DNA of 64,000 nt from Fibrisoma montanum (GTDB taxonomy: Bacteria; Bacteroidota; Bacteroidia; Cytophagales; Spirosomataceae). Positions 33,529 to 49,339 of the stretch are shown here, piece by piece (within the stretch, counting starts at the first letter, position 1; the number at the start of each line of letters is the position of its first letter). Under the pieces are notes generated by a model. That model did no database searches, was not told the DNA's origin, and saw only the letters and a program-made list of their open reading frames with translations. A program made the translations under genes and the position numbers. The stretch covers positions 62,001 through 126,000 of the forward strand of contig NZ_QXED01000011.1 in NCBI RefSeq assembly GCF_003583365.1, in the 5' to 3' direction.

Positions 33529-34644
33529 TTATCCCCTCCAAGTGGCCCAAACATCATATTCCTCTCTAGGAGAATTAATATCTGTGTTAATGTGTACAGC
33601 TTGGCGATTACCTTGCGAAGCAAAACCAGCAGATTTAGTTTCGTCAATTTTCCAGCCCGTATCATCAAGCGAGTGATATAAAATTTCTAATGGATCTGCT
33701 TTTCTGTCGTTAAGCCCGCCGAAACGAATAACCATTTGAGCTCTTTTCTTCGCTACTGCCCCTGAATTAATCCAAACTTTTTTCAATTGAGCGGCAAACA
33801 TTTCTGGACTCGCATGTTCCACCTGCCCATTCATTGAATAGTCTACAGTAGATTGCCCTCCTAAAAACCATAGACGTAGCCACTGGTCGGGTATGTACGT
33901 TCGCATTCCATAGTAAGGAGGTGAGGTGATTATCCAACTTACTCTTTTTGATATAGTCTTAAAAGTATTGCTGTCACGACTGTCACCAGTTATTATTTGA
34001 CCCTTACTGCGTACCACCTCTTCATTAAAATACTTGTTAGCTCTTTCTTCAATAATTGATAGTATATTGACATAATCTGGTTCAAGCCGGTTTTTATTCC
34101 AGAAGTTAACAGCATACACTGGCTTAGGAGCGTATGTCCTTTGACACTGATTAGAAAAATACGACTGTTTAGTCTTTTGCTTTGGACCATGCAATGCTCC
34201 TAAAACAATAGCACGAAGTGCTATTCTCTCGTCTGACTCGCAGTCATTCAATAATTCTTCTCTGATTTTACAAAGAGCGCTTAGCACATCAGGATGATAT
34301 GCCTTTTCCCAGAAAATGCCTTCAGGAACATGAGTGTTTGTCGAATCATTATTAAGAATTCTCTTCACTTCTCTAATAATAGCACGTGGGTTGGTGTTAG
34401 CTAATTTGGCTTGAGATATAGCTACTGCTACTGGGCTGCTATCAATGCCAATAGTACGTAACCCCAACATTCGACCAGCATAAACTGTGGTGCCACGACC
34501 ACAAAAGGGGTCCAAGGCCCATTGCCCTTTTTTTCCTGCTTCCTTAAAGATTTCATACGGAAAATCTAAAGGAAACATGGTGAAGTAAGGGCATATACCA
34601 TTGAGTAATGCCCTCTTTTCTAATGATATAGTTTTTTGAGCCAA
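33529..34644 (-). CDS. DNA methyltransferase (N4-cytosine/N6-adenine type) of the NurA-HerA island
   Basis: 371 residues counted from a TTG at 34644. AdoMet motif I is DPFCGRGTT at 45-53 and catalytic motif IV is SPPY at 241-244, with about 190 residues between them for target recognition. SPPY is typical of exocyclic amino (N4C/N6A) methylases. It is the third gene after NurA and HerA and probably modifies host DNA so that the pair ignores it. The TTG follows the HerA stop in the same frame with no gap. The first ATG is codon 23, inside the conserved PYFTMFPLDFP segment. So the start is unusual, or the protein is made by readthrough. Confidence 0.8.
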   Translation of the reverse strand: MAQKTISLEKRALLNGICPYFTMFPLDFPYEIFKEAGKKGQWALDPFCGRGTTVYAGRMLGLRTIGIDSSPVAVAISQAKLANTNPRAIIREVKRILNNDSTNTHVPEGIFWEKAYHPDVLSALCKIREELLNDCESDERIALRAIVLGALHGPKQKTKQSYFSNQCQRTYAPKPVYAVNFWNKNRLEPDYVNILSIIEERANKYFNEEVVRSKGQIITGDSRDSNTFKTISKRVSWIITSPPYYGMRTYIPDQWLRLWFLGGQSTVDYSMNGQVEHASPEMFAAQLKKVWINSGAVAKKRAQMVIRFGGLNDRKADPLEILYHSLDDTGWKIDETKSAGFASQGNRQAVHINTDINSPREEYDVWATWRG

Positions 34645-36714
34645 TTATTTTTGCTGTTTTAATCGAAGGTGTGATTTACCATTCTCATTCTTGACCCGCT
34701 CCCATACAGAATTCTGAGCACCGAAAATTTCATTCATTACAAGTGGTACAAATTTGTATGCCAAGTCGTTTCGTTCTGTCTCATCAATAACAGCTGGCAG
34801 ATTTTCCTTGATTACTGCTTGCAGTGCTCCCCAAGCAATGCCGCCGTTATTAAGCTTTTCCATAATTTCAGCATCAGACCGTATTGCATCAACAGCTCTT
34901 GTTTTATAAGCGCTCAAGGGATCTATGCCATTTACGGCTAAACCAGTATCTGGATCTAATAACTGTTGTTCAAACTTTTGTTTGAGCTCTTGAGCATAAA
35001 TACTAATTGGAGCTTGGTCATACTTAGGATCTCTCAATTTATGTAGTGCTTCAAACGATAGCACTCTCAATGCTACTGGATAGGGCTTGCCACCAGAGGA
35101 ACTCCAAAATACGCCTTGCCCTGGTATCGGCTCATTTAGAAGAGAACTCAGTATATCTTGACTAAAGTGTGCATTTGACTGCTTAATATTATTTAAGTCA
35201 GATGCAGACAATAGATGGAAAATAAACCAGTTGTCTCCTTGGCTAAGAAGCTCGTTTGGGATACTACCTGGCTGTTGAGTAATTAAAACTGCTCCTAAGT
35301 CGTATTTTCTACCTTCTTTTACCCAAGCTATATATGGCTCTGAACCAGCTTCATGGCCACTAAGCACAGACTGAGCTTCTTCAACCACAGCTAAAGTTGG
35401 TATAGTTTGTGGTTGAGCTTCGGTATACTGTTCTTGGTTATGGCTAAATATTTTTCGAAGAATAAGACTTGAAAGAATCAAGGATTGTCCACCACGCATT
35501 TGAGAAACATCAATAACACAAAGTTTTCCGTCTTTTAATGCGCTTAATAACAAATCCATCAATTGACTGCTACTGTCATGTAACATACGTACTATTGATG
35601 TCATGTTAGATTTTGCGGCCAAAGCTTCAGCTTCCTGATTTGGCAATGTAAGGCCAAGGATTCGTGCGATATCAGATGTTTGAGTTTGATTGCCATCTCT
35701 ATCAATAATATTGACTAGTTCCTCCCACTGATCATCTCTTAAAGATCTTAGCTTGCGTACATTTTGCTGGTCCTGTCGGTCAGGACTTAATGAGATAGAT
35801 ATTACATCGCTTGGTTTCAAGCGCCGAATGTCGAGCTTAATTCCTCCTGCTACGAAGGACTGGTAGAAAGGGCTTGGCCCTCTACGATTGGTAAATATGA
35901 CTAAGTTATTTTCAATAGCTTCAACGTCGCATAAACCTGGCCTACCTTTATCATCCGGCCAGAAATATTCACCATCTGGATCAAAAAGTAGAGTACCTAC
36001 TGGTACCTTTCTCCCCCCACGTTTTTCTGTAGTAGGAGTGGTTTTATATAGTTCACTAAAAAGCAACTTGTTCAAGTTTGATTTGCCGAAACCAGCACGA
36101 GCAAATATAAATGACCTGCGCGAAATCAAGTTGCTGACCGGAAACTTTACTAAGATCTCTGGGTCTTTAATTTGCATCCATTTCTCAGAGGATAACTTGT
36201 TACTAGTCCCTGAATATATATATTCTCCAAGGGCATAAAAGCCTAATTCAGCCCCTTCAATATTATGACCTGCGATCTCCTGAATAACTTCTTTCGACGG
36301 AAAAGCCACCGCACTACCAACGTGAGGTAAACGTCTATGGGAAGCCACAAAAGTAAGTGAGTTGCTAGTGTCATTTCGCAACACTCCTAAAACTCTGATG
36401 TCAATCTCATACTTGAGATAATCCTCTCTTAGGTCTTCCGGCACTGGGCGACCTTCGCGCATAGCTCGTATATTAAACTCTTCTCCTACTCCCGAGGATA
36501 ATTTACCTGCTGATGATAGGGAGGTTATTCTTCCTAGCACTGCCTCTTCTGGTGTTTCCAATTGGACTAGAAGAAACTGACCGTGCATTGGAATACTTTG
36601 AAAATCATTTCTATATGGAAGGACTAAGTCTGCGTGAAACTCAAGACCGCCATGGCTAAAGCCTCTGAATACACCAATGATTTGTTGGGGTGGGAATAGT
36701 TCAAACTTGCTCAT
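34645..36714 (-). CDS. HerA-family ATPase/DNA translocase
   Basis: 689 residues. A HAS-barrel-like N-domain (residues about 10-150) is followed by Walker A ARAGFGKSN near 205-213, a DPDGEYFW block near 250, Walker B TLAVVEEAQ near 443, and a sensor-type ITQQPGSIPNEL. These are the signatures of HerA (DUF87), a hexameric DNA pump. In archaea HerA works with NurA in DNA end resection. In bacteria HerA with NurA, Sir2 or DUF4297 nucleases gives phage defence. NurA is encoded 21 bases upstream and a methyltransferase directly downstream. The DNA is markedly more AT-rich than the flanks. Confidence 0.88.
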   Translation of the reverse strand: MSKFELFPPQQIIGVFRGFSHGGLEFHADLVLPYRNDFQSIPMHGQFLLVQLETPEEAVLGRITSLSSAGKLSSGVGEEFNIRAMREGRPVPEDLREDYLKYEIDIRVLGVLRNDTSNSLTFVASHRRLPHVGSAVAFPSKEVIQEIAGHNIEGAELGFYALGEYIYSGTSNKLSSEKWMQIKDPEILVKFPVSNLISRRSFIFARAGFGKSNLNKLLFSELYKTTPTTEKRGGRKVPVGTLLFDPDGEYFWPDDKGRPGLCDVEAIENNLVIFTNRRGPSPFYQSFVAGGIKLDIRRLKPSDVISISLSPDRQDQQNVRKLRSLRDDQWEELVNIIDRDGNQTQTSDIARILGLTLPNQEAEALAAKSNMTSIVRMLHDSSSQLMDLLLSALKDGKLCVIDVSQMRGGQSLILSSLILRKIFSHNQEQYTEAQPQTIPTLAVVEEAQSVLSGHEAGSEPYIAWVKEGRKYDLGAVLITQQPGSIPNELLSQGDNWFIFHLLSASDLNNIKQSNAHFSQDILSSLLNEPIPGQGVFWSSSGGKPYPVALRVLSFEALHKLRDPKYDQAPISIYAQELKQKFEQQLLDPDTGLAVNGIDPLSAYKTRAVDAIRSDAEIMEKLNNGGIAWGALQAVIKENLPAVIDETERNDLAYKFVPLVMNEIFGAQNSVWERVKNENGKSHLRLKQQK

Positions 36715-36735
36715 TTATCTTTTTATAGTTCTGAA

Positions 36736-37878
36736 TCAATAACGAAGTCGGGCAGGGTCAGCATCTTGCATCCTTGTTATGTCAATCACTGAGCCCTCAT
36801 TGCCAAGTACATTCCTTAAGCCATTAAAGATGTGGTCTTGCAGGATGTCATAATCAAAATCAACAAGAGCAGCATTCTCGTGAGCTTTTTGAAGGCAGAG
36901 AGGATAGAAAGGAACCGGAAAGCCGCTTACAGCATCTGCTAATAGATAACCGATGATTGCTGGGGCTTCTCCTATTTGCGGCAAAAAGATATCAATTGGC
37001 CAAATGGGATCACGTGACCTGTTACCAAACTTGACGAAGAACATTTTGCCACCGACAAATTTGTTTATTTCTCCGGTACCTATATCCGCATCATCGCCAC
37101 GGGCATACTCTGACCATATGTAAGCTTTTGTTTCAATATCACGAGGAATCTCTACAAAAGCTGGATAATCAGTTGTCAATATATGTTCAAGGTGCATCGC
37201 CAAGCGGTACCGTGTGAGGACTTTGCTATGTTTTGCGAAGCCAACTATAAAAATTTTTCGACGATCTTTTTTGTGTTTATCAATTCCTTCTTCGATACCA
37301 GTGAGGTATTTTTTGAAATTGTCTTTCGCAAAAACTTTGCTTCTAAGTAGTCCGTCAAACACAATCAATGTATCGGTACCGAACTTAGTTTCTCTAACAA
37401 TATTGAATAAGATTGCCCATTCTACTATTTCTCTATAAACTTGAACCCAACTAGGACTTATTGGTTTATTGCTATCTTCATTATCACTTATCATGTGGCT
37501 TAGCTGATCCAAGCGATCAACTCCTAAATAAGCCATCATTTTACCAAGTGCAGTAGCTGGCGTACCATCATCTAAGAATTGCTTGGCACTCAACTGTGAG
37601 ATTTTAGTGGAAGGGGTTATTGCCTCTAAGCAATATTCATTATTGCTTGAATCTACCACTCTGACCAACTGTATTAAGAAAGGGTCATACTGTATCTTAT
37701 TATTCCCACCGTCTGTTCCAACAAGTGAAATAGCAGTCGTATTTCTTGGTTGAATACGACGAACAGAACCTTGTAAAGGACGGATTTCGTCTCGTAGCTG
37801 GTCTAAAAGGTTGCGATCTTCTTTTAATCTCTCCGATATTTCGGAACGAAGCTGGTTATAGCTTTCAGGGTCAATCAT
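36736..37878 (-). CDS. NurA-domain nuclease
   Basis: 380 residues from the ATG at 37878. A coiled N-terminus is followed by VGTDGGNNKI near 53-62 (the first catalytic Asp of NurA, the DG(S/G) motif), LIVFDGLLRSK near 170 (second Asp) and a C-terminal block ending GSVIDITRMQD. NurA is an RNase H-like nuclease that binds HerA. As first gene of the minus-strand operon NurA-HerA-methyltransferase it would supply the cutting activity. The DNA is AT-rich, consistent with transfer from another source. Confidence 0.82.
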   Translation of the reverse strand: MIDPESYNQLRSEISERLKEDRNLLDQLRDEIRPLQGSVRRIQPRNTTAISLVGTDGGNNKIQYDPFLIQLVRVVDSSNNEYCLEAITPSTKISQLSAKQFLDDGTPATALGKMMAYLGVDRLDQLSHMISDNEDSNKPISPSWVQVYREIVEWAILFNIVRETKFGTDTLIVFDGLLRSKVFAKDNFKKYLTGIEEGIDKHKKDRRKIFIVGFAKHSKVLTRYRLAMHLEHILTTDYPAFVEIPRDIETKAYIWSEYARGDDADIGTGEINKFVGGKMFFVKFGNRSRDPIWPIDIFLPQIGEAPAIIGYLLADAVSGFPVPFYPLCLQKAHENAALVDFDYDILQDHIFNGLRNVLGNEGSVIDITRMQDADPARLRY

Positions 37879-38172: not shown

Positions 38173-38207
38173 CGTTGGGTATATTTGAGAAAGAAACGAA
38201 CTGTGCT

Positions 38208-38426
38208 ATGCTCACATCACTTTCGGGAACCTATAAAAATGGAACGATCATTTTAGATGAGGTTCCGTCCATCGATCACGATGTACCTGTGATTGTCACC
38301 TTTCTGGAAGATAATAAACTTTCCAAAGCGAAGGGTAAAGGGGTAAGGTTAGGTAGCTGGAGCGGTAAATACAGCTTACCCGATAACTTTAACGAGCCGC
38401 TTGACGATCTTGCCGATTATATGTAA
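38208..38426 (+). CDS. Antitoxin, DUF2281-like (module 1)
   Basis: 72 residues from the ATG at 38208. An N-terminal AbrB-like strand region (LSGTYKNGTIILDEVP) is followed by a variable part and the toxin-binding tail DNFNEPLDDLADYM, which is typical of DUF2281 antitoxins paired with PIN toxins. Its stop TAA overlaps the toxin ATG by one base. It is a paralogue of the antitoxin at 41053. Confidence 0.82.
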   Translation: MLTSLSGTYKNGTIILDEVPSIDHDVPVIVTFLEDNKLSKAKGKGVRLGSWSGKYSLPDNFNEPLDDLADYM

Positions 38427-38785
38427 TGGATTATCTGATTGACACGCAAATTCTTATTTGGTCGCTGGTTAGCCCTGATAAGCTTTCTGCTACGGGTCGT
38501 CGCGCATTACAAGAGGGGACTATTTATGTGAGCGTCGTCAGTTTACTGGAGATTGCGATCAAGCAGAAGGTCAATAAGCTACCTGATTTGCCTGTTACGA
38601 CCGACGAGTTGGTTGAGCAGTTAAAACGAGATGGCTTTGACTTGTTGCCGCTTTCAATCCGACACATTGCCCGATACAATGATATCCGGTTGTTGCTGGC
38701 AACCGCATTGGCCGAACGTGTACCTTTAATCAGTGCTGATGAACATTTCAGCTATTATACTGACCAGGTAACAATTGTCTGGTAG
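38426..38785 (+). CDS. PIN-domain toxin (VapC-like) with internal deletion (module 1)
   Basis: 119 residues. The first acidic site (LIDTQILIW, D6) and the second (LLEIAIKQK) are present. In the paralogue at 41274 the segment before LATALAE holds the third acidic motif HRDPFDR. Here about 11 residues are missing at that point (RYNDIRLLLATALAE). The deletion is in frame. PIN toxins are ribonucleases needing these acidic residues for metal binding, so this toxin is probably inactive or weakened. Start and length are otherwise normal. Confidence 0.82.
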   Translation: MDYLIDTQILIWSLVSPDKLSATGRRALQEGTIYVSVVSLLEIAIKQKVNKLPDLPVTTDELVEQLKRDGFDLLPLSIRHIARYNDIRLLLATALAERVPLISADEHFSYYTDQVTIVW

Positions 38786-40581: not shown

Positions 40582-40932
40582 TTACTCCACAAAATGCCAG
40601 CAGACACCGGCCAGATCAATAACGTTTACCTCGCGGCCGTAGGGTTGATCGATTGGCTTGCTGATTCGGATGCCAAACGTTTCGGGAAGTTGCCTGTCTG
40701 TTACGTCCCGCCAGAATTCATCGGCGTTGGTGATGCGGACGCTGAGCATGAAGTTTTCGGCAAACTCAACCTTGTCGTATTTCTGTAAAATGAATTTGCA
40801 GCCATCGCGCTCGAAACCAACGTAGTCGCCGGCGTCCCAATTCAGGTGGAAGCCCAACGCCTGGAAGAATTGTTTCGAGCCCTCAAAATTGCTGCCGGAG
40901 GGAACAAATGGTTCAATGGACAGGATGGTCAT
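40582..40932 (-). CDS. VOC-family (glyoxalase/bleomycin-resistance fold) protein
   Basis: 116 residues. IEPFVPSGSNFEGSKQFFQALGFHLNWDAGDYVGFERDGCKFIL is a single betaalphabetabetabeta unit pair of the vicinal-oxygen-chelate fold, ending VNVIDLAGVCWHFVE with the typical D-P/L-x-G-x-x-W/F-H pattern. It acts as a dimer, and its substrate cannot be read. It lies upstream of the amidase on the same strand with a 136-base gap. Confidence 0.8.
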   Translation of the reverse strand: MTILSIEPFVPSGSNFEGSKQFFQALGFHLNWDAGDYVGFERDGCKFILQKYDKVEFAENFMLSVRITNADEFWRDVTDRQLPETFGIRISKPIDQPYGREVNVIDLAGVCWHFVE

Positions 40933-41052
40933 GGGAAAAGGAAGGTAAGATAGCAGACGCGTTGACGTTAAGAGCTGATGAGTAAGGCGAAAATTCTTTA
41001 TATTTGAAAAGAAGGGTTATCAATAATTGAGGGCTTGTATAAGAGGATAACA

Positions 41053-41274
41053 ATGCTAACAACCATAACAGGCACATACGAAAACGGCCAGATTATATGG
41101 CATGAAACGCCCCCAGTTAAAGAGCGGACGGAGGTGATCGTTACGTTTCTGGAATCTAAAGAAGATAAAATTTCCAGCGATAAGCACAAACGACGGGGCG
41201 GGACTATGAAAGGCGAAGTCTGGATATCAGATGATTTTAACGCGCCTTTGGACGATTTAAACGATTACATGTGA
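41053..41274 (+). CDS. Antitoxin, DUF2281-like (module 2)
   Basis: 73 residues from the ATG at 41053 (MLTTITGTYENGQIIWHETP). Same design as the antitoxin at 38208: an AbrB-like start and the tail DDFNAPLDDLNDYM. The stop TGA shares one base with the toxin start. It neutralises the PIN toxin encoded next and probably represses the operon. Confidence 0.85.
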   Translation: MLTTITGTYENGQIIWHETPPVKERTEVIVTFLESKEDKISSDKHKRRGGTMKGEVWISDDFNAPLDDLNDYM

Positions 41275-41675
41275 TGCGACTGCTGCTTGACACGCAGTTA
41301 CTGATTTGGTTTCTTGAAGATAACAAGTCGTTACCTGGTCATATCCGTGATCTTATTAGTGAAGCAGACAATGAAGTACTAGTTTGTAAAATCAGCTTCT
41401 TTGAAGTCGCTATCAAACTTAAAATTGGCGGGCGTCTTAATCTTAAACGTGGCCTGCTTGGTTTGATTAATGACTGTCTGCTGGAAAATATCAGTGTGCT
41501 GCCCCTCTTGGATGATCACTTGCTGGCTTATGACCGAATTCCTTTTTATGACGACCACCGCGACCCGTTTGATCGATTGATTCTAGCCACGGCTTTAGCT
41601 GAGTCAATTCCCATCATTTCTGCTGATAAAAAGTTTCAGCAATACACAGGAGTCGTTCAATTAATTTATGTCTGA
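41274..41675 (+). CDS. PIN-domain toxin (VapC-like), complete (module 2)
   Basis: 133 residues from the ATG at 41274; a GTG one codon earlier is possible. All acidic sites are visible: LLDTQLLIW, FFEVAIKLK, HRDPFDR and SADKKF. PIN toxins of this type cut RNA when not bound by antitoxin. It is the intact counterpart of the shortened toxin at 38426. A small hairpin (41720-41739, AGAAGGT/ACCTTCT) follows but has no T-run. Confidence 0.87.
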   Translation: MRLLLDTQLLIWFLEDNKSLPGHIRDLISEADNEVLVCKISFFEVAIKLKIGGRLNLKRGLLGLINDCLLENISVLPLLDDHLLAYDRIPFYDDHRDPFDRLILATALAESIPIISADKKFQQYTGVVQLIYV

Positions 41676-41814: not shown

Positions 41815-42270
41815 TCACACGAGCGCACCCCGGAACAAGGCCAGCCGCTCGCGCAGGACGTACCCGCCTGCTTCGGGGTTCCAGCCACCCAGCCGGGTGA
41901 ACAGCCGGACGCTGCCCGGCAGCGTGGCGTATTTATCCAGCGCCTTGTACCAAACCTCGCGGTCGCGGTAGGGGGCCAGTAGTATCCGCGCCTGGCTCAG
42001 CGCCCGGTGCTGGCGGGGTGTCCAGGGCGGGCGCTGGCGATAGGCCGCCCCCTGGCCGTTGAGCAGGTCCGGGAGGGTATACTGCGGAGCCGTCGGCAGC
42101 AGTTCGCTTAACAGATACAGCCCCAGCTCAACGTTGAGCATCCGGTTGGCTACGCGGCCCGGCAGCGCGTGGCGGTTGCGCAGGCGAGTCGCCAGCGGCT
42201 CCTGCCAGCGCAGAAGGCTGGACAGGGCCGGGCGAACGGCGGGATAGGCGGATGTTAATGCAGTGTTCAT
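41815..42270 (-). CDS. Unknown protein of the PARP cassette, family A copy 1
   Basis: 151 residues from the ATG at 42270 (MNTALTSAYP). A basic, Arg-rich N-terminus is followed by MLNVELGLYLLSELLPTAPQYTLPDLL and WTPRQHRALSQARILLAPYRDREVWYKAL. The protein at 44481-44972 shares the blocks VELGL(Y/F)L.S(E/Q)LLPTA, LP.LL, WTPRQH..L..(A/G)R.LLA and .VW..ALD.YA, so the two are paralogues. I recognise no known family. It is probably helical. It is the last minus-strand gene of the PARP cassette. Confidence 0.75.
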   Translation of the reverse strand: MNTALTSAYPAVRPALSSLLRWQEPLATRLRNRHALPGRVANRMLNVELGLYLLSELLPTAPQYTLPDLLNGQGAAYRQRPPWTPRQHRALSQARILLAPYRDREVWYKALDKYATLPGSVRLFTRLGGWNPEAGGYVLRERLALFRGALV

Positions 42271-42358
42271 TAGTGTTGTTCGTTGTTCAAGTCAGAGTTG
42301 GTACCCACAGGACGCAGCGTATACGTTGTTCTCCTGCTTTGAGAGTAATGGTTCCTCG

Positions 42359-42607
42359 CTACTGCAGTTGTGGCTTCAGGCGCGGAAAATGAAAGATGCG
42401 GAACAGGCCGTTGTCATTGATTGACCAACCCTCCTGTTTCGCAACGGCGTACAACCAGTCAGCAATGTGCTCCCGCTGGGCCAGGTAGTTGCGCTTACGT
42501 AGAAAGTCCTTCACGCAGAGTGTCGTTGTGAAGCCTTCGGCCAGAATCAGGGTAGTAGCAGCCAGGCGAACTTCGTTAAGACCAGCTTTTTTGAGTTGCG
42601 TTTTCAT
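42359..42607 (-). CDS. Unknown small protein of the PARP cassette, family B copy 1
   Basis: 82 residues from the ATG at 42607. It shares most positions with the protein at 42816 (for example VR.AATTLILAEG.TTTLCVK.FLR, then DNGLFR). The order of a helix pair and a C-terminal strand hairpin (WSINDNGLFRIFHF) looks like a winged-helix DNA-binding fold, but no known family is evident. An 88-base gap separates it from family A copy 1. Confidence 0.75.
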   Translation of the reverse strand: MKTQLKKAGLNEVRLAATTLILAEGFTTTLCVKDFLRKRNYLAQREHIADWLYAVAKQEGWSINDNGLFRIFHFPRLKPQLQ

Positions 42608-42815
42608 GACACAGTGTACGTTTAGTGTTTTCTGAAATTCGTTGTCTCATTTCACTACCGAATCGGGGTCCTGCGGGGTGTTCATTAGTCGTTGCTGAAG
42701 GCCCTTGTTGCGTTCGATTGTGAGTCAAAGATGGCACCTGCTGAACGTAAATTTTTTACGTTGTTCTCCCGGGTCAAAAATATTTTTTTACACGTACTAG
42801 TTGTCGGATCGGCGC
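42608..42815. other. Gap between the two family B genes, with a 12-codon leader frame
   Basis: A minus-strand ATG at 42685 opens the frame MNTPQDPDSVVK, ending TGA at 42647, 40 bases before the next gene's ATG. Its start region (CAACGACTAATGAACACC) resembles the starts of both family A genes. It may be a leader peptide or the stub of a lost third family A copy. The rest is AT-rich with T-runs near 42750-42790. Confidence 0.4.
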
Positions 42816-43064
42816 TCACTGCGGCTGGGGCCTCAGACTCGGGAAGTAGTAGACCCGAAAGAGGCCATTATCGTTGACGGCCCAGCCTTCCCGTTTGGCT
42901 ACGGCATACAGCCACTTCGATACGTCGGCCTGGTAAGCCAGGTAGTTTTTGTTGCGAAGGAAGTTTTTAACGCACAACGTCGTGGTGCAGCCTTCGGCCA
43001 GGATCAGCGTCGTGGCGGCCATGCGTACGGCTCGTAGTCCCGCTTTTTTGGGTTTTGTGTTCAT
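42816..43064 (-). CDS. Unknown small protein of the PARP cassette, family B copy 2
   Basis: 82 residues from the ATG at 43064 (MNTKPKKAGLRAVRMAATT). It is a close paralogue of the protein at 42359. The ATG lies one base after the PARP stop codon, so translation is probably coupled to the PARP gene. Such tight linkage suggests that this protein works directly with the PARP, for example as a DNA-binding adaptor or immunity factor. That role is inference. Confidence 0.78.
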   Translation of the reverse strand: MNTKPKKAGLRAVRMAATTLILAEGCTTTLCVKNFLRNKNYLAYQADVSKWLYAVAKREGWAVNDNGLFRVYYFPSLRPQPQ

Positions 43065-43065
43065 C

Positions 43066-44424
43066 TTACACCTTAATTCGGACCATGTACCGGATCGTAC
43101 ACTGCGCCTGGTTATACACAATGAATTCGTTTTTCAGCAGACTCACACCCCGTTGCGCATACACCGAATCGTAGCTGGGGTCAATCTGTTTCAGCCGGTC
43201 GGCATCCAGCTGCATATGCCAGTGTTCGTGTTGGTTTACCACCAGCTGTTTACCCACATGAACCTCATAAATAGCCAGATAGCCTTCCTGATGCGTTCCC
43301 TTCGCCCACACAGAGCCGTGGAGGGAGGTGTAGTTCAGAGATTTGCTGAACTGATCGGCGAAGTAGATACCGTAGCCGAACATCTTGCCCGTAATGACGG
43401 CGTTGGCCGGACGTAGTACTAAGCCTGTTTTTAGGATTGAGAGCCAGTTTTCGCTGCGGCTCCCGTGCCAGAGCAGTTGCGTTTTGCGGTTTTTCTGCCC
43501 GTTCACATACTCGTCGAAAGCCGCCTGGGTATTGGCCTGACACACGCTGAAGGCGGCATCGAATTTGTCGACGTCTGGTCCCATCATGCGTTTGATGAGC
43601 GTCAGTAAGCGTTTGTCGGTCACGGGCTCCATAGTCAGGTTCATCGTTTCCAGGAGCGAAACCGGCGGCTGGTCGGACTGGGAAGTCGGCTGGTTTAACT
43701 CAACCTGCCCACGCATGACATCCAGCGTATCCTGCTCACTGGCCAGCCCATCGCGGAGTGTCTGCAGTTCGGCGGCCGACTGGGGCGGTTGGGTAAGCAG
43801 ATGTTCGCCGACCTTGCCCATCTTGCGCGGAATGGTCTTGAACAGATCCAGCAGCCTGCGGTTGAACGTGTCGGTGTCCAGACCAGGCCCCATCATATCC
43901 GCCAGGTCGTCGAGCAGGCGCTGGGCCGCATCAACCTGTTTGCGGGTTACTTCCTGGGCCGTAACGACGTAGTTCTGAAAAATGGAGCGGTTGGCCAGTT
44001 CCAGCAGTCGGCTCATCAGACCGCGTACGGCCGGGTTTTCAATCGAGCCGGCATCCGTTGCTATGCTGGTTTCGGCAAACAAATGGGTCTGGTCTACATA
44101 CCCCTTCGCCACTTTCTCGCGAAACTTCTTGTCCCATTGTGCCAGCGGATAAGTAGCCGTACTATGCGTGCCGCCCACCCGACCGTACTGCACAGTGAAC
44201 GTACCAGTATCATTCTCGCGCATTTCATAATACTTGTTGTTGTTCTCGGCCGTGACCATAATGAGTTTGGCCATCCGAAAGGCTTTAGCGGGCTGGGTTT
44301 TAAGCGGAGGGTCTGATTGGTAGCTTGTTGTATGGTTGTTGAGAGTAGGTGCTGGTTGTGTTTGTTGTACGATAACCGCCGGGTTCGTCCTGGTTGTGAT
44401 GCGCTGCAGCAGACCGGAAAGCAT
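43066..44424 (-). CDS. WGR-domain poly(ADP-ribose) polymerase (PARP)
   Basis: 452 residues: a 50-residue Gln/Pro/Thr-rich lead, a WGR domain (residues about 51-125, core VQYGRVGG), a helical PARP regulatory domain (about 130-245) and an ADP-ribosyltransferase domain (about 255-452). The H-Y-E triad of eukaryotic PARP1-type enzymes is intact: H320 in WHGSR, Y354 in GYGIYFAD, E433 in KNEFIVY. The enzyme should transfer, and with the Glu also extend, ADP-ribose from NAD. WGR and helical domains in PARPs 1-3 sense DNA breaks. ATG at 44424 is used; an internal ATG before AKLIMVT (residue 51) is possible. Confidence 0.9.
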   Translation of the reverse strand: MLSGLLQRITTRTNPAVIVQQTQPAPTLNNHTTSYQSDPPLKTQPAKAFRMAKLIMVTAENNNKYYEMRENDTGTFTVQYGRVGGTHSTATYPLAQWDKKFREKVAKGYVDQTHLFAETSIATDAGSIENPAVRGLMSRLLELANRSIFQNYVVTAQEVTRKQVDAAQRLLDDLADMMGPGLDTDTFNRRLLDLFKTIPRKMGKVGEHLLTQPPQSAAELQTLRDGLASEQDTLDVMRGQVELNQPTSQSDQPPVSLLETMNLTMEPVTDKRLLTLIKRMMGPDVDKFDAAFSVCQANTQAAFDEYVNGQKNRKTQLLWHGSRSENWLSILKTGLVLRPANAVITGKMFGYGIYFADQFSKSLNYTSLHGSVWAKGTHQEGYLAIYEVHVGKQLVVNQHEHWHMQLDADRLKQIDPSYDSVYAQRGVSLLKNEFIVYNQAQCTIRYMVRIKV

Positions 44425-44480
44425 GGAATAAAGTGTGGTTAATCAGATGAAAAAGAATGGATAGAGAAAAGTGGATTGGG

Positions 44481-44972
44481 TTACCCTACGGTTTGCTTGA
44501 GCATCAGAATGCGGTTGCGAAAGAAACCGACGGTTTTTTCTTTGAAGCGGCTGCGGTCGGTGCTGATGTCGTAGGCCTGCAGGCGATCGGGGGTGTTGGC
44601 GTAGGCGTCGAGCAGGGCCTGCCAGACGTTTGGCTGCTGAATGTGAGCCAGCAGGGCCCGGCCGCGGTTAAGCAGCTTATGTTGCCGGGGTGTCCACGTA
44701 CGGCGCTCCAGAAACGAGCCGTTGCTTTCGGTCAGCAGGGTGGGCAGCGCATCTGGCGAAGCCGTCGGCAGCAGTTGCGATACCAGAAACAGACCCAGTT
44801 CCACGTCCAGCAGTTGCTGGGCCGACAGCGCCGGACGGCGGGCCGGACGTGGGCGTTGTGCTGTTTCTCCAGCCCACTGGGGTTGCGGAGTCATTGCCGG
44901 GAAAAGAACGGCCGGCTGAGCCTGGCTCTGGGCGTAGGCGGTCCGGCGTACAGGGCGAAAGAGCGTGTTCAT
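44481..44972 (-). CDS. Unknown protein of the PARP cassette, family A copy 2
   Basis: 163 residues from the ATG at 44972 (MNTLFRPVRR). An Arg-rich, Pro/Gln-rich N-terminus is followed by the family A core LLDVELGLFLVSQLLPTASPDALPTLL and WTPRQHKLLNRGRALLAHIQQPNVWQALLDAYAN. It is a paralogue of the protein at 41815. It is the first gene of the minus-strand cassette, 56 bases before the PARP start, so its promoter region (44973-45186) probably drives the whole set and faces the divergent WYL regulator. Confidence 0.75.
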   Translation of the reverse strand: MNTLFRPVRRTAYAQSQAQPAVLFPAMTPQPQWAGETAQRPRPARRPALSAQQLLDVELGLFLVSQLLPTASPDALPTLLTESNGSFLERRTWTPRQHKLLNRGRALLAHIQQPNVWQALLDAYANTPDRLQAYDISTDRSRFKEKTVGFFRNRILMLKQTVG

Positions 44973-45075
44973 TTGTATCGTTGTTTAAAAGTGACAGAAC
45001 AAAGTTCTACCCGCCAGAACGTAATCTTTTTCCGTTCATCTTTTTTATTGGAAATTTTTTTTGTTGCTTTGAAGA

Positions 45076-45159
45076 GCTTCGCGCAGGAGTAGCAGGGAGT
45101 GCAGGGATTGCATGGACCGCACGGGTGAGCATCACATCCCTTCCATCCCCGCGCGAAGC
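45076..45159. promoter_or_regulatory. Inverted repeat between the PARP cassette and WYL gene
   Basis: GCTTCGCGC (45076-45084) and GCGCGAAGC (45151-45159) are perfect inverted arms, with weaker complementarity running into the interior. It sits in the leader of the WYL gene, between divergent genes. It could be a regulator site or an RNA hairpin. Confidence 0.4.
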
Positions 45160-45186
45160 CCCCGCAACCCCTGCCAGCCTATACTC

Positions 45187-46221
45187 ATGCCCATCACCCG
45201 CTCTGCCTTCCAGCGGTACCGCCTGATCGACGAAATCATCAGCCGTTACCCCCGTCAGTTTTCCAAGCAGCGTTTGTTCGAACTGCTTCAGGACAAGTGC
45301 GGCATCCGGTCTGTTTCGTCGCTGGAGAAAGACATTCAGCGGCTACGGGAGGACCACGAAGCCCCCATTGCGTACTGTAAAAAACGGAATGGGTATTACT
45401 ACACGAATCCGCAGTTCCGGCTCCTGAAACTGATGCTCACGCCCGACGACATGGAAGCGATGGAGCAAGCCCGCGAGGTGTTGGCCGCAACGCAGGGCGC
45501 TTCGGTGGCAAATGACCTGGATCATGCCCTGCAACGCGTCCGGCAGAGCCTCGACATTATTCGGGAGGTGAAGCGAGACAGCAACGCGTTGGGGCAGATG
45601 CGTCGGGTGGTGTACGTAGAGGAGCGCATTCTGGGGGGCAATCGGCATTACGTACCGGTGCTAATCCGGGCAGTGAACCAGAGCCGGCAGGTGGCGTTCC
45701 GGTATCGCAAGCATGAAACGTCCATGCCCGGCGAGGAGCGACCGAAACTCCGGATCCTGCACCCGATTTTGTTGCGCGAGGTGTCGGATAGCTGGTACGT
45801 GATCGGCTACGACGCGCCCAGTGGTCGGGAGAAAACCTTCGCCCTTGACCGCATGAGCGACCTCGAAATTCTGGATGACCCCTGCGACGTACCACCGAAT
45901 GTACTGACCAACGTCAGCGAACTGTTCGAGCACATCTACGGCATCACCGATAGCAGCGGGCCGGTAGAGGAGATTATCCTACAGTTTACGCCCCTGTTCG
46001 GGCGGTACGTCAAGGCCAAGCCCATTCACCAGACGCAGGAGATCATCTGCGATAACGAGACGGAGTGTGTTGTCCGGCTCCGGCTGGCACCCAACCGCGA
46101 CCTGCTCATGCACCTGCGCAGCTACGGCGAACACTTAACCGTATTGCAGCCGACGAGTCTGGTCGAGGAGTTGAAAGCGTCTTTGCAGGCCACGCTGGCG
46201 CGGTACGATGAGCAGAATTAA
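45187..46221 (+). CDS. WYL-domain transcriptional regulator
   Basis: 344 residues from the ATG at 45187. An N-terminal winged helix (FSKQRLFELLQDKCGIRSVSSLEKDIQRLRED) is followed by a WYL domain (ILHPILLREVSDSWYVIGYD...FALDRMSDLEIL) and a WCX-type C-terminus. WYL proteins sense ligands, often single-stranded nucleic acid, and control DNA-damage genes (PafBC) or phage-defence loci (BrxR, CapW). It is divergent from the PARP cassette and most likely controls it. Confidence 0.9.
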   Translation: MPITRSAFQRYRLIDEIISRYPRQFSKQRLFELLQDKCGIRSVSSLEKDIQRLREDHEAPIAYCKKRNGYYYTNPQFRLLKLMLTPDDMEAMEQAREVLAATQGASVANDLDHALQRVRQSLDIIREVKRDSNALGQMRRVVYVEERILGGNRHYVPVLIRAVNQSRQVAFRYRKHETSMPGEERPKLRILHPILLREVSDSWYVIGYDAPSGREKTFALDRMSDLEILDDPCDVPPNVLTNVSELFEHIYGITDSSGPVEEIILQFTPLFGRYVKAKPIHQTQEIICDNETECVVRLRLAPNRDLLMHLRSYGEHLTVLQPTSLVEELKASLQATLARYDEQN

Positions 46222-46295: not shown

Positions 46296-48800
46296 ATGCC
46301 AAACCGTTTACTTGTCTATCTGATTTTGTCTTTTATCTCCGTTCATCTGGTGTACGGCCAGGCTGAAATGTCCGGGTTAGTGGTAGAGAAGACATCGGGG
46401 CGGCCGGTTGAATATGTGAGTGTCGCCGTCTACCGGCCGGCCGATTCGGTGGCAGTAGCCGGGGCCATCACCGATTCCGTAGGGGCGTTTCGGATTACCA
46501 ATCTGAAGCCTGGTCAATACATGCTCAAAACGTTTTTCATTGGCTACAAACCGCAAACGGTTGGCCCCATCCGGCTCCGGCATAATGAGGTTGTCACGGT
46601 CAATACCCTCCTGTTGGAAGCGGTTAAGAATCAACTCAATGAAGTAGTCGTAACGGGCCAGCGGTCTGACCTGACCGTAAAAGCAGACCGGCAAACCTAC
46701 CGGGCGGGACAGTTTCAATCAGCCGTGGGCGGCACCGCCACCGATCTGCTGCGGAACCTGCCGGGTATCACCATCAACGCCGAAGGCGAAGTGACGCAGC
46801 GTGGCGCCAACGGGTTTCTGGTACTGCTCAACGGCAAACCCGTGCAGGCCAATTTGGGTACATTGCTCAATCAACTACCCGCCAATACCATCGAATCCAT
46901 CGACGTCATCACGACGCCCTCGGCCCGCTACGACCCCGACGGCAAAGCGGGTATTATTGCCATTACCACTAAAGCGGGTGCCGATGTTGGGCTGTCGGTG
47001 CTGATGAATGTCCAGACGGGGCTGCCCAGCCTGAATGCATTTGACAATGCCCGCAAGCCGGTACGTTACGGTACGGACTTGACGCTCAGCTACCGATCGG
47101 CCCGCTGGGACTGGACGTTCAGCACGGCCTATCTCCGCAATGACATAGCCGGTCGGCGGGAGGGGGATGTCAATACGGCGATTGGTAATCGGTTCACCAC
47201 CTTTCCGAGCGTGGGTGAGCGGAGTTATGACCGCTACACGTTCACCAACCGGCTGGCGGTTAGCTATACCCCCGGTAAGAATGATGTCTGGTCGGGTGGG
47301 TTGTACTACGGCTACCGCACCGAGGACCGGATTGCAGATTTGGTGTACAACAACCGGACCATCGACCGCACGACGGGGCAGCTATTGAGTCAACTGACGT
47401 ACTTCAACGCGAACCTGGTACGCCGACGTGGGCAGTTCTTCACGGCCAATCTCGACTATACGCACACGTTCCCGAACAAGGCTACCCTGAGCGCCGGCGT
47501 TCTCTACGAATACGACTTCCTGGATGGGTTCACCCGAAATCTGAACGTTCACCGCACCGACAGCCGCGATACGCTGCAATACACGCTGACCACAACCGAC
47601 CGCCCAATAGGTAACGCCCGGGCCAACCTCGACGCTACCTGGCCACTGGCGGGTGGTAAGCTCGAAGCGGGGTATCAGTATCGCTACCAGCAGGATGATG
47701 GCGACTACCGGTTTCTGGAACAGGATGGCAACGGCGCTCCGCTGCGGGTTATCGATGCGTTTACAGGGCGGGTGCGGGTATCGAACCAGATACACAGCCT
47801 GTATGGTCAGTACGGCCGCAAGACCAAACGCTGGGAGTATACGGCTGGTCTGCGGGTTGAGTCGGCGGAGCGGCAGGTGGTGATTCGGCCGCAGGGGCAA
47901 ACTTTTCCGCTGTCGCTGCGAAATCTGTTTCCATCGGCCAATGTGGTGTTCCGGCCCACCGATGCCTGGCAGTTTCGGCTGGGGTATAGCCGCCGGGTGC
48001 AGCGTACGAGCAATCTGGCGCTGAACCCGCTGCCCGAGCGCGAACACTCCGAAACGCTCGAACAGGGCGATCCGGCGTTGCTTCCCGAATTCGTCGACCT
48101 CAGCGAACTGGGTTTTACCCGCACCATTGGCCGGAGTACGCTGCAGGCTACCGTCTATCACCAGAACGTGCAGAACATTGTCAACCGGGTCAACAACGTC
48201 TTTGCTGATACCATCCTGAACCGGATTTATACGAATGCCGGTCGGGCGCAGCGGTACGGTCTGGAACTGGCCACCGATCTGACGATCACTAAACGCTGGA
48301 AGCTGTATGTCGGTGGCACAGTCTACCGGTCGGTCATCAGCGGGCAGCTGAACGCAGCCCGATTATTCCAGAACGCGGTGGTGTTCAGCAACCAGGCGTG
48401 GGTGTATTCGGTCAATGTAAATACCAGCATTCAGCCGTCACCGTCGTGGATAATCCAGGGTAATCTGAATTATTTATCGCAGCGCATCACGGCCCAGGGC
48501 GAAGACTCCCGGTTTTTCCAGCCCAATCTGTCGGTCCGAAAAAGCTTCCGCAACAATCGGCTTGCCGTTACGATGCAGTGGCAGAACATTGGGCTTGGCT
48601 GGTTGCCGACGAATGAACAGCGCATCACCACGCAGGGCATCTCCATGCCGGGCACCTCCATGCCGGGCCGCGATTTCTTCACAACTACCAATTACATTCA
48701 GGAGAAAGATATCCTGCTGGTGAATGTCAGCTATTCGTTGCGGCAACGGAGCAAACCCGCTAAATTGCCGACCAACGAATTTGGTGAGAAAGAGTTCTGA
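46296..48800 (+). CDS. TonB-receptor-like outer-membrane barrel protein (OMP_b-brl_3 type)
   Basis: 834 residues: signal peptide (to LVYGQ), a carboxypeptidase-regulatory domain (SGLVVEKTSGRPVEYVSVAVY), a plug-like part (NQLNEVVVTGQRSDL, LRNLPGITINAEGEV, ESIDVITTPSARYDPDGKAGII) and a barrel. These phrases mark the family of 'outer membrane beta-barrel' receptors without strict TonB plug motifs. The ligand is unknown. Near the end a 15-base tandem repeat (48636-48665) encodes GISMPGTSMP. The next gene's ATG overlaps its stop by one base. Confidence 0.87.
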   Translation: MPNRLLVYLILSFISVHLVYGQAEMSGLVVEKTSGRPVEYVSVAVYRPADSVAVAGAITDSVGAFRITNLKPGQYMLKTFFIGYKPQTVGPIRLRHNEVVTVNTLLLEAVKNQLNEVVVTGQRSDLTVKADRQTYRAGQFQSAVGGTATDLLRNLPGITINAEGEVTQRGANGFLVLLNGKPVQANLGTLLNQLPANTIESIDVITTPSARYDPDGKAGIIAITTKAGADVGLSVLMNVQTGLPSLNAFDNARKPVRYGTDLTLSYRSARWDWTFSTAYLRNDIAGRREGDVNTAIGNRFTTFPSVGERSYDRYTFTNRLAVSYTPGKNDVWSGGLYYGYRTEDRIADLVYNNRTIDRTTGQLLSQLTYFNANLVRRRGQFFTANLDYTHTFPNKATLSAGVLYEYDFLDGFTRNLNVHRTDSRDTLQYTLTTTDRPIGNARANLDATWPLAGGKLEAGYQYRYQQDDGDYRFLEQDGNGAPLRVIDAFTGRVRVSNQIHSLYGQYGRKTKRWEYTAGLRVESAERQVVIRPQGQTFPLSLRNLFPSANVVFRPTDAWQFRLGYSRRVQRTSNLALNPLPEREHSETLEQGDPALLPEFVDLSELGFTRTIGRSTLQATVYHQNVQNIVNRVNNVFADTILNRIYTNAGRAQRYGLELATDLTITKRWKLYVGGTVYRSVISGQLNAARLFQNAVVFSNQAWVYSVNVNTSIQPSPSWIIQGNLNYLSQRITAQGEDSRFFQPNLSVRKSFRNNRLAVTMQWQNIGLGWLPTNEQRITTQGISMPGTSMPGRDFFTTTNYIQEKDILLVNVSYSLRQRSKPAKLPTNEFGEKEF
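48636..48665 (+). repeat. 15-base tandem duplication in the receptor gene
   Basis: GGCATCTCCATGCCG is followed directly by GGCACCTCCATGCCG. It adds five residues (GISMP, GTSMP) in a surface-type loop near the barrel end. Confidence 0.7.
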
Positions 48801-49339
48801 TGCACACGTTTACGGCCCTGCTGAAGCGCTTTGACAACAACGGCGAGAAAACCCGCTGGACTTACATTGACATTCCCGACGAAGTGACCGAAGCGCTGAA
48901 ACCTGGTCAGAAAACGTCATTTCGGGTTAAGGGAACGCTCGATGAGTACGTTATTGAGCGGGTGGCGCTGATCCCAATGGGACCGGTAGAGAACCGGACG
49001 GATGGTTCAGAGACCCGGTTCATTATGGGCATCAACGCCGTCATGCGGAAGGCGCTTCGGAAGGAGAAAGGAGCAACGGTGCAGGTGCGTATCGAACTGG
49101 ATGACTCACCCATTGTCTTGTCGGCCAACCTGATGGGCTGCCTGGAAGATGACCCGGCCGCGCTGGCGTTTTTCAATAGCTTAACGAAGGGGCACCAGCA
49201 TTACTTCAGCAAGTGGATTGAAGAGGCCAAAACCATCGAGACCAAAACCAAACGGATAACCCAGGCCGTGACGGGTCTGTCGATGGGCATGGGCTACCCG
49301 GAAATGATTCGGTATTTTAAGAGCCGAACTATTGATTAG
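48800..49339 (+). CDS. DUF1905/YdeI (OmdA)-like protein
   Basis: 179 residues. The N-terminal half fits DUF1905 (WTYIDIPDEVTEALKPGQKTSFRVKGTLDEY...ALIPMG). The C-terminal half fits the bacteriocin-protection YdeI/OmpD-associated family (DPAALAFFNSLTKGHQHYFSKWIEEAKTIETKTKRITQAVTGLSMG). It is a small cytoplasmic protein of poorly known role. Its start overlaps the receptor stop by one base, so the two are translationally coupled. Confidence 0.82.
   Translation: MHTFTALLKRFDNNGEKTRWTYIDIPDEVTEALKPGQKTSFRVKGTLDEYVIERVALIPMGPVENRTDGSETRFIMGINAVMRKALRKEKGATVQVRIELDDSPIVLSANLMGCLEDDPAALAFFNSLTKGHQHYFSKWIEEAKTIETKTKRITQAVTGLSMGMGYPEMIRYFKSRTID

Follow-up and report, generated by a model that had tools for sequence, protein, structure and literature searches.

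A stretch of 64,000 nucleotides (nt) from Fibrisoma montanum, hereafter the window, encodes a PARP with a WGR domain, placed among small paralogous genes and opposite a gene for a WYL-type regulator. What is such a PARP doing in a bacterium, which genes work with it, and what switches them on? On balance we lean towards a DriD-like regulon for stress and defence in one clade of the Spirosomataceae, where the PARP and a small companion protein, B, would form a phage-related and exchangeable effector. No published account of the whole locus was found in the open-access literature.

A conserved core with an optional PARP

When the window was re-read, all six open reading frames (ORFs) were present, in the order A1-PARP-B1-B2-A2 on the minus strand and with the WYL gene divergent on the plus strand. 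The features are as follows (protein lengths in amino acids, aa; the ground for each assignment is given in brackets).

41815..42270, minus strand: A2, stand-alone pPIWI_RE_Z protein, 151 aa (PF18155, 7.7e-17)
42359..42607, minus strand: B2, second copy of B, 82 aa, 68% identical to B1 (pairwise comparison)
42726..42732, minus strand: -7 box of the B2-A2 promoter, 13 nt after O2 (sequence)
42746..42760, minus strand: O2, candidate operator CGTAAAAAATTTACG, before B2-A2 (motif search)
42816..43064, minus strand: B1, small companion of the PARP, 82 aa (linkage of B and PARP in relatives)
43066..44424, minus strand: PARP with WGR domain, helical stretch and catalytic domain, 452 aa; WGR at about 44086-44250, catalytic domain at about 43072-43551 (Pfam, PDB, triad check)
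44481..44972, minus strand: A1, stand-alone pPIWI_RE_Z protein, 163 aa (PF18155, 2.6e-17; PADLOC pPIWI_RE_Z, 2.4e-17)
45000..45006, minus strand: -7 box (ANNTTTG) of the A1-PARP-B1 promoter, 13 nt after O1 (sequence)
45020..45034, minus strand: O1, candidate operator CGGAAAAAGATTACG, before A1 (counterpart in the WYL-Z region of relatives)
45187..46221, plus strand (ORF opens at 45112; probable start 45187): WYL-WCX transcription regulator (Pfam WYL and WCX; 57 of 222 family genomes)

The layout described in an earlier, sequence-only reading of the window held up. The WYL gene (45112-46221, plus strand) lies opposite the PARP strand, B1 starts one base past the PARP stop, and alignments recovered both paralogue pairs, A1 with A2 (40% identity over 122 aa, E 7e-16) and B1 with B2 (68% identity over 82 aa). 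Between F. montanum and its nearest relative, Fibrisoma limi, the ratio of non-synonymous to synonymous substitutions (dN/dS) is 0.06-0.12 for WYL, PARP, B1, A1 and A2; since these genes are under purifying selection, the ORFs are not products of chance.

Both A1 and A2 belong to the Pfam family PF18155, pPIWI_RE_Z, as PADLOC agrees, and are called Z genes below. Their distribution was followed in 222 genomes of the family and in a wider sample of 395 Bacteroidota genomes drawn evenly. Z genes were found in 58 of the 222, mostly in two copies (a single match in G017, G026 and G232), and in 3 of the 395, all three of them Spirosomataceae. The WYL gene occurs in 57 of the 222 family genomes, which are the Z-bearing genomes minus an incomplete one (G232). 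PARP matches are present in 34 of the 222 and include a remnant with a stop (G237) and a split gene in a partial assembly (G025). The fetched loci of the 57 WYL genomes hold PARP and B in 32 cases, B only in 10 (one of these, G237, with the PARP remnant) and neither in 15; here G162 is counted among the 32 although its PARP and B sit on another contig, and G187 among the 15 although a lone B lies elsewhere in its genome. On the WYL tree the presence of PARP needs 13 changes, at least nine of which are forced by well-supported branches. The WYL and Z genes are the conserved core of the locus, and PARP is accessory.

That the genes belong together is borne out by Z lying beside PARP in 31 of the 33 genomes with a PARP ORF, and by B following PARP in 33 of the 34 PARP ORFs (the one without it is a fragment from an assembly). 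Within the family A and B are not mostly found away from PARP, but the part that is optional is PARP, and neither A nor B. The idea that A is an undescribed family bound to PARP had to be given up: A is a known domain and part of the core, and 25 of the 58 Z-bearing genomes are without a PARP match.

Elsewhere, in pPIWI-RE islands, pPIWI_RE_Z has been described as forming the N-terminal part of the DinG helicase (Burroughs et al.). These islands consist of three genes, encoding a restriction endonuclease (REase), the DinG helicase with its Z domain, and pPIWI-RE. The Z domain is what they share with A1 and A2, which in contrast are stand-alone and paired, and come without helicase, REase or PIWI. 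Membership of a pPIWI-RE island was rejected because Z is not fused to a DinG helicase and no REase or pPIWI-RE gene is adjacent, none being found among the six locus proteins or the scanned neighbours. We also rejected the idea that A and B were recently duplicated together in tandem, since A1 and A2 are an old paralogue pair, both present in most relatives with the locus and, in one genus, even 19-61 kilobases (kb) from each other. A second copy of B is confined to few relatives. The two families are not unique to the locus, as A is pPIWI_RE_Z and B reaches other Bacteroidota and phages. A search of the genome of F. montanum gave no Z match beyond A1 and A2, a PDB search with Z had no match, and an NCBIfam search gave no useful lead. 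On plasmids A1 has two matches (E up to 1e-3), both in Nostoc operons which, from their gene order and a DUF3962 gene, are presumably of the pPIWI-RE type.

The WYL regulator and its candidate operator

Pfam identifies WYL (1.2e-12) and WCX (1.5e-11) in the divergently encoded protein. Its start is probably 45187 instead of 45112, because the WYL alignment of most relatives begins at residues 22-26. The five best solved chains align over the same stretch (E 2e-9 to 6e-9) and include 7TZV and 8TP8, both DriD; PafBC comes next at 4e-5. The nearest solved relative, DriD, is a damage activator that senses single-stranded DNA (ssDNA). Its sites in Caulobacter crescentus are described in a preprint as lying at a fixed distance from the -10 box, overlapping the -35 box and activating an operon divergent from driD (PMC12340889), and PafBC is described as activated by ssDNA and acting by sigma adaptation (PMC11804915). 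The locus shares with them a WYL-WCX regulator, an operator over the -35 or -33 position at a fixed distance from the -10 or -7 box, and a divergent operon. It differs in the operator itself (ATACGAC-N7-GTCGTAT for DriD, CGTAA-N5-TTACG here), in its occurrence in a Spirosomataceae clade and in having PARP, Wadjet, pPIWI-RE and VOC genes behind the operator; sensing of ssDNA is suggested here by analogy. The WYL protein is likely the regulator of the locus.

Bacteroidota promoters have a -7 consensus and a -33 box. The palindrome CGTAA-N5-TTACG was found by comparing the WYL-Z region of the 57 loci, where it mostly reads CGTAAAAAGATTACG or CGTAAATAGATTACG and usually lies about 60 nt upstream of the first Z gene (L066 has a further small gene between palindrome and Z). 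Allowing up to three mismatches, 56 of the 57 WYL loci have the palindrome, followed after 13 nt by A..TTTG, no more than 500 nt from the start of the WYL ORF; in L100, the 57th, the palindrome is about 800 nt from that start. The strict pattern CG[TG]AA-N5-TTACG gave 91 sites before Z genes in 58 loci, and A..TTTG stands at exactly 13 nt past the palindrome in 91 of 91. Of the 57 WYL loci, 33 have at least two strict sites, 22 have one and two (L047 and L093) have none; three Z loci with no WYL gene nearby have one strict site each. This exact spacing, with the operator in the place of the -33 box, fits activation better than repression. In the genome of F. montanum, O1 and O2 are the sole matches to the full architecture at zero mismatches. 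At one mismatch the reversed control also gave two matches, and at two mismatches the search was near background (38+37 against 23+31).

Copies of the operator are enriched in genomes that have the WYL gene. The pattern CGTAAANAGNTTACG gave 96 matches in 36 Spirosoma genomes against 3 for the reversed pattern, 134 against 7 in the 57 WYL genomes, and 19 against 61 in the 165 genomes without WYL (the last two comparisons summed by hand; Fisher 2e-29, relatedness not corrected for). By hand count, 46 of the 96 Spirosoma matches lie away from the locus; 44 of these were fetched, and 34 of the 44 lie outside ORFs of at least 150 aa. Of the matches in other genera, 11 were fetched. TT[GC] stands at offset 12 or 13 in 31 of the 34 sites outside ORFs, and no other tested offset has it in more than 4 of them; among the 10 Spirosoma sites inside ORFs, 1 has it at the expected spacing.

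VOC-type genes are the largest class of first genes behind these sites (16 of 34, in two blastp groups of 12 and 4). Pfam glyoxalase is over the cut-off for L204, L236 and L279, and L232 scores 19.3 against a cut-off of 20.6 bits. The other first genes include two of GNAT type (one by Pfam), two DEDDh exonucleases, one RibD_C, one ankyrin gene and two AraC/GlxA-like genes more than 300 nt off, whose class was assigned by eye. Furthermore, the operator precedes Wadjet JetA-B-C-D in one genome (G222; PADLOC JetABCD), a true pPIWI-RE island in Spirosoma fluviale (G213; PADLOC PprRE-PprDinG-PprPIWI), and a DUF5712 element (L225 by Pfam; L234, perhaps L244, by eye), and the remaining first genes fall in no assigned class. 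Labels of prophage or mobile element, like the classes of L205, L222 and L244, were assigned by eye, and as some of the Spirosoma genomes are close relatives the cases are not all independent. Outside Spirosoma, the operator is found before VOC genes in G162 and G009 (genus g9) and before a lone B in G187 (genus g3). In L225, L234, L244, L228 and L240 it lies in regions resembling mobile elements or prophages, as SOS boxes also do. LexA itself was not found by a Pfam search of 53 WYL genomes for its DNA-binding domain, which gave weak matches in 36 of them (26 just over the cut-off, the best 25 bits); the five of 37 matches that were opened, three by Pfam and two by sequence, were all Lrp/AsnC regulators.

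The PARP and its companion B

The claim of a PARP with WGR and catalytic domains and an intact H320-Y354-E433 triad was confirmed by Pfam (catalytic domain 3.5e-28; WGR, PF05406, 2e-5, above the cut-off), by PDB matches (PARP1/2 chains, about 7e-17) and by inspection of the residues. The WGR domain and the triad are as in PARP2/3-like WGR-PARPs (clade 1). For a helical regulatory domain Pfam PARP_reg gave no match, but the PARP1 alignment spans residues 159-367 of the query. Among the 34 PARP ORFs the triad reads HYE in 29, HHE in two and HRE in two, with one fragment, and the helical stretch is present in 29 and absent in four, again with one fragment. The HHE and HRE proteins are four short Spirosoma PARPs, and they are the ones without the helical stretch. 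For PARP, dN/dS is 0.06-0.12 in 14 of 15 pairs; it is 0.09 for the HHE pair, 0.28 for the HRE pair, and 0.11, with dS saturated, for an intact-HHE pair. The strong purifying selection on one pair of the shortened PARPs suggests that these have a non-catalytic role. In L075, L076, L077 and L078 the shortened PARPs still have B adjacent.

Bacterial WGR-PARPs, including those of Fibrisoma limi and Spirosoma linguale, are in print (Perina et al. 2014, PMC4245714; PMC5966428). Those of the Cytophagales clade have the same domains, the YGR form of WGR and the H-Y-E triad as found here; a gene context of B, a Z pair and a WYL operator is not described in the cited portions of the two papers.

On its gene linkage, B is the companion of the PARP. 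Besides two Spirosomataceae, PARP (E up to 1e-10) was found in 4 of the 395 Bacteroidota genomes, and in all four B follows it, at distances from an overlap to 242 nt. The suggestion that B is a simple immunity factor is weakened, because B stays in the locus without a PARP ORF in 10 of the 57 WYL genomes. A PDB search with B gave a lectin as its best match (E 0.14), and a plasmid search with B gave no match. Close relatives of the PARP on plasmids were rejected, as none of 20 matching records reaches 60% identity, and neither B, Z nor WYL was found in the fetched plasmid and XacN1 regions (L274-L278).

The same pairing is found in a minority of large phages. In Cellulophaga phage phi4:1 the PARP gene gp031 is directly followed by a B-like gene, gp030 (E 5e-6), as here. 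The sole tblastn phage match of B is in the uncultured 462-kb phage LR756500 (E 2e-5). About 9 kb from it lies the PARP of this phage, the one that matches best among phages (36.6%). The B-like proteins of phages differ in being longer (140-275 aa), and Z and WYL were not found in the two phage stretches searched (L143 and L144). With patterns that were too narrow, an initial scan of viral contigs gave no PARP; broader alignment found 85 contigs with PARP relatives, of which 80 were kept (L292-L371). A family profile detected a B homologue within 5 kb in 5 of the 80 loci, in four of them at most 350 nt after PARP, and none within the fetched stretch of the remaining 75; the reversed-protein control also gave none. 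In an unrooted quick tree, for which viruses were sampled on purpose, the Bacteroidota PARPs are one group among the viral ones. Such a tree would fit PARP transfer in either direction, and Perina et al. (2014, PMC4245714) argue that viral PARPs were gained from hosts.

As to the defence island said to adjoin the locus, a HerA ATPase and a methyltransferase are the nearest defence-type matches (33.5-36.7 kb; PADLOC, 10 window proteins scanned), and they lie 5 kb off, beyond two PIN toxin genes. At 33529-37878 (minus strand) a HerA/DUF87 ATPase, an N6/N4 DNA methyltransferase and a matchless third gene may form a defence cassette. Two similar pairs of antitoxin-like and PIN-domain genes (VapBC type; PIN by Pfam) occupy 38175-38785 and 41035-41675 (plus strand), and at 40582-40932 (minus strand) a small protein after A2 is VOC-like by eye, with no Pfam match up to E 1. 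A 173-aa gene family on the WYL side (48800-49339) recurs in 42 of the 71 fetched loci; this favours a resident locus, and a mobile island was rejected on that ground.

Activator, repressor, toxin or phage module

From the above we infer that a DriD-like WYL protein would bind CGTAA-N5-TTACG near the -33 position, 13 nt before the -7 box, in an autoregulated locus, and would activate rather than repress A1-PARP-B1 and B2-A2, the local units. Operator-bearing Wadjet, pPIWI-RE, exonuclease, VOC, GNAT and mobile-element-like genes may be under its control in other species. The trigger is likely ssDNA or a related nucleic-acid signal arising from damage or phage attack; the main ground for a damage model is the analogy with DriD and PafBC, to which the WYL protein is nearest. 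The WGR-PARP would detect DNA ends and ADP-ribosylate targets near them. B would be its dedicated small partner, probably placing or restraining it, and A1 and A2 would be helicase-adaptor (Z) domains acting without the usual DinG fusion. Of the damage- or phage-linked role first proposed, the general direction gains from the operator before one Wadjet and one pPIWI-RE operon and from the kinship with DriD, whereas the part that tied A to PARP does not stand.

Several observations weigh against such an activator. The wider regulon is seen in Spirosoma and not here, because the genome of F. montanum has the full architecture at the two local sites only. Wadjet and pPIWI-RE stand behind the operator in one case each, a second pPIWI-RE operon (L107, G227) has no operator site, and no recognisable DNA-repair gene was found as first gene behind the operator. 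The predominance of VOC genes fits chemical stress equally well. An N-terminal helix-turn-helix in the WYL protein had no Pfam match up to E 1, a repressor could equally occupy the fixed position, and the four short Spirosoma PARPs have lost the catalytic Tyr.

CapW and BrxR are WYL repressors of one kind, and a ligand-relieved repressor of this type could silence a phage-defence locus, with PARP acting after phage entry and damage itself not being the trigger. BrxR is reported to bind inverted repeats, to repress and to accompany diverse defence systems (PMC9122601); the locus likewise combines a WYL regulator and a palindromic operator with nearby defence genes, Wadjet and pPIWI-RE stand behind the operator, and PARP is patchy as defence genes are. 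However, repressors of the BrxR type control the neighbouring system, whereas here one operator type recurs before unlinked genes. The solved proteins closest to the WYL protein, DriD and PafBC, are activators, the 13-nt spacing with the operator in the -33 place holds in 91 of 91 sites, and VOC and GNAT are not classical defence genes. We consider repression unlikely, but a serious competitor. Far less probable is that PARP and B work as toxin and antitoxin, or as toxin and immunity protein, and that A and WYL only happen to lie beside them. Their adjacency in 33 of 34 ORFs and the small size of B would suit such a pair, but B occurs without PARP in 10 of 57 WYL loci, and alone behind the operator in L283. 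The helical domain restrains eukaryotic PARPs, and its stretch is kept in 29 of the 34 PARP ORFs; moreover, Z genes stay beside PARP, and B is adjacent even to the four PARPs that lack the catalytic Tyr. ADP-ribosyltransferase (ART) toxins do exist, DarT being an example (PMC9503650).

We also give little credence to PARP-B being a domesticated phage module for takeover or anti-defence, now serving in superinfection exclusion. The viral PARP relatives (85 contigs, 80 kept), the B gene within 5 kb in 5 of the 80 and the place of the Bacteroidota PARPs among viral ones would be in keeping with it. Phage PARPs have been described, and those of jumbo phages have been proposed to modify host proteins in the manner of T4 ARTs (PMC7824862). 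Against this, the tree is unrooted, made by a quick method and viral by design of its sampling, viral PARPs are held to be host-derived (Perina et al. 2014, PMC4245714), and the PARP gene here is under a host promoter and purifying selection.

The DriD-like regulon also has a broader form, which is conceivable though doubtful: an SOS-like, LexA-independent, ssDNA-triggered regulon of the Spirosomataceae that joins PARP break signalling of the eukaryotic type with anti-phage and anti-plasmid systems. With one WYL activator and a new palindromic operator at its centre, it would always include the two Z adaptors and often PARP-B; defence systems, resistance-type genes, prophages and mobile elements would enter it by gaining the operator.

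Judged from sequence, the locus reads as a DriD/PafBC-like WYL circuit with a new candidate operator and unusual genes behind it. The apparent coordination of Wadjet, pPIWI-RE, resistance-type genes and mobile elements by one WYL regulator through one operator suggests an SOS-like arrangement. The Z domain of pPIWI-RE helicases could also be studied here in a stand-alone form. The role of bacterial WGR-PARPs has been open since their description, and the locus supplies them with a likely regulator, a promoter with a candidate operator, a near-constant small partner in B, and conserved neighbours in the Z genes.

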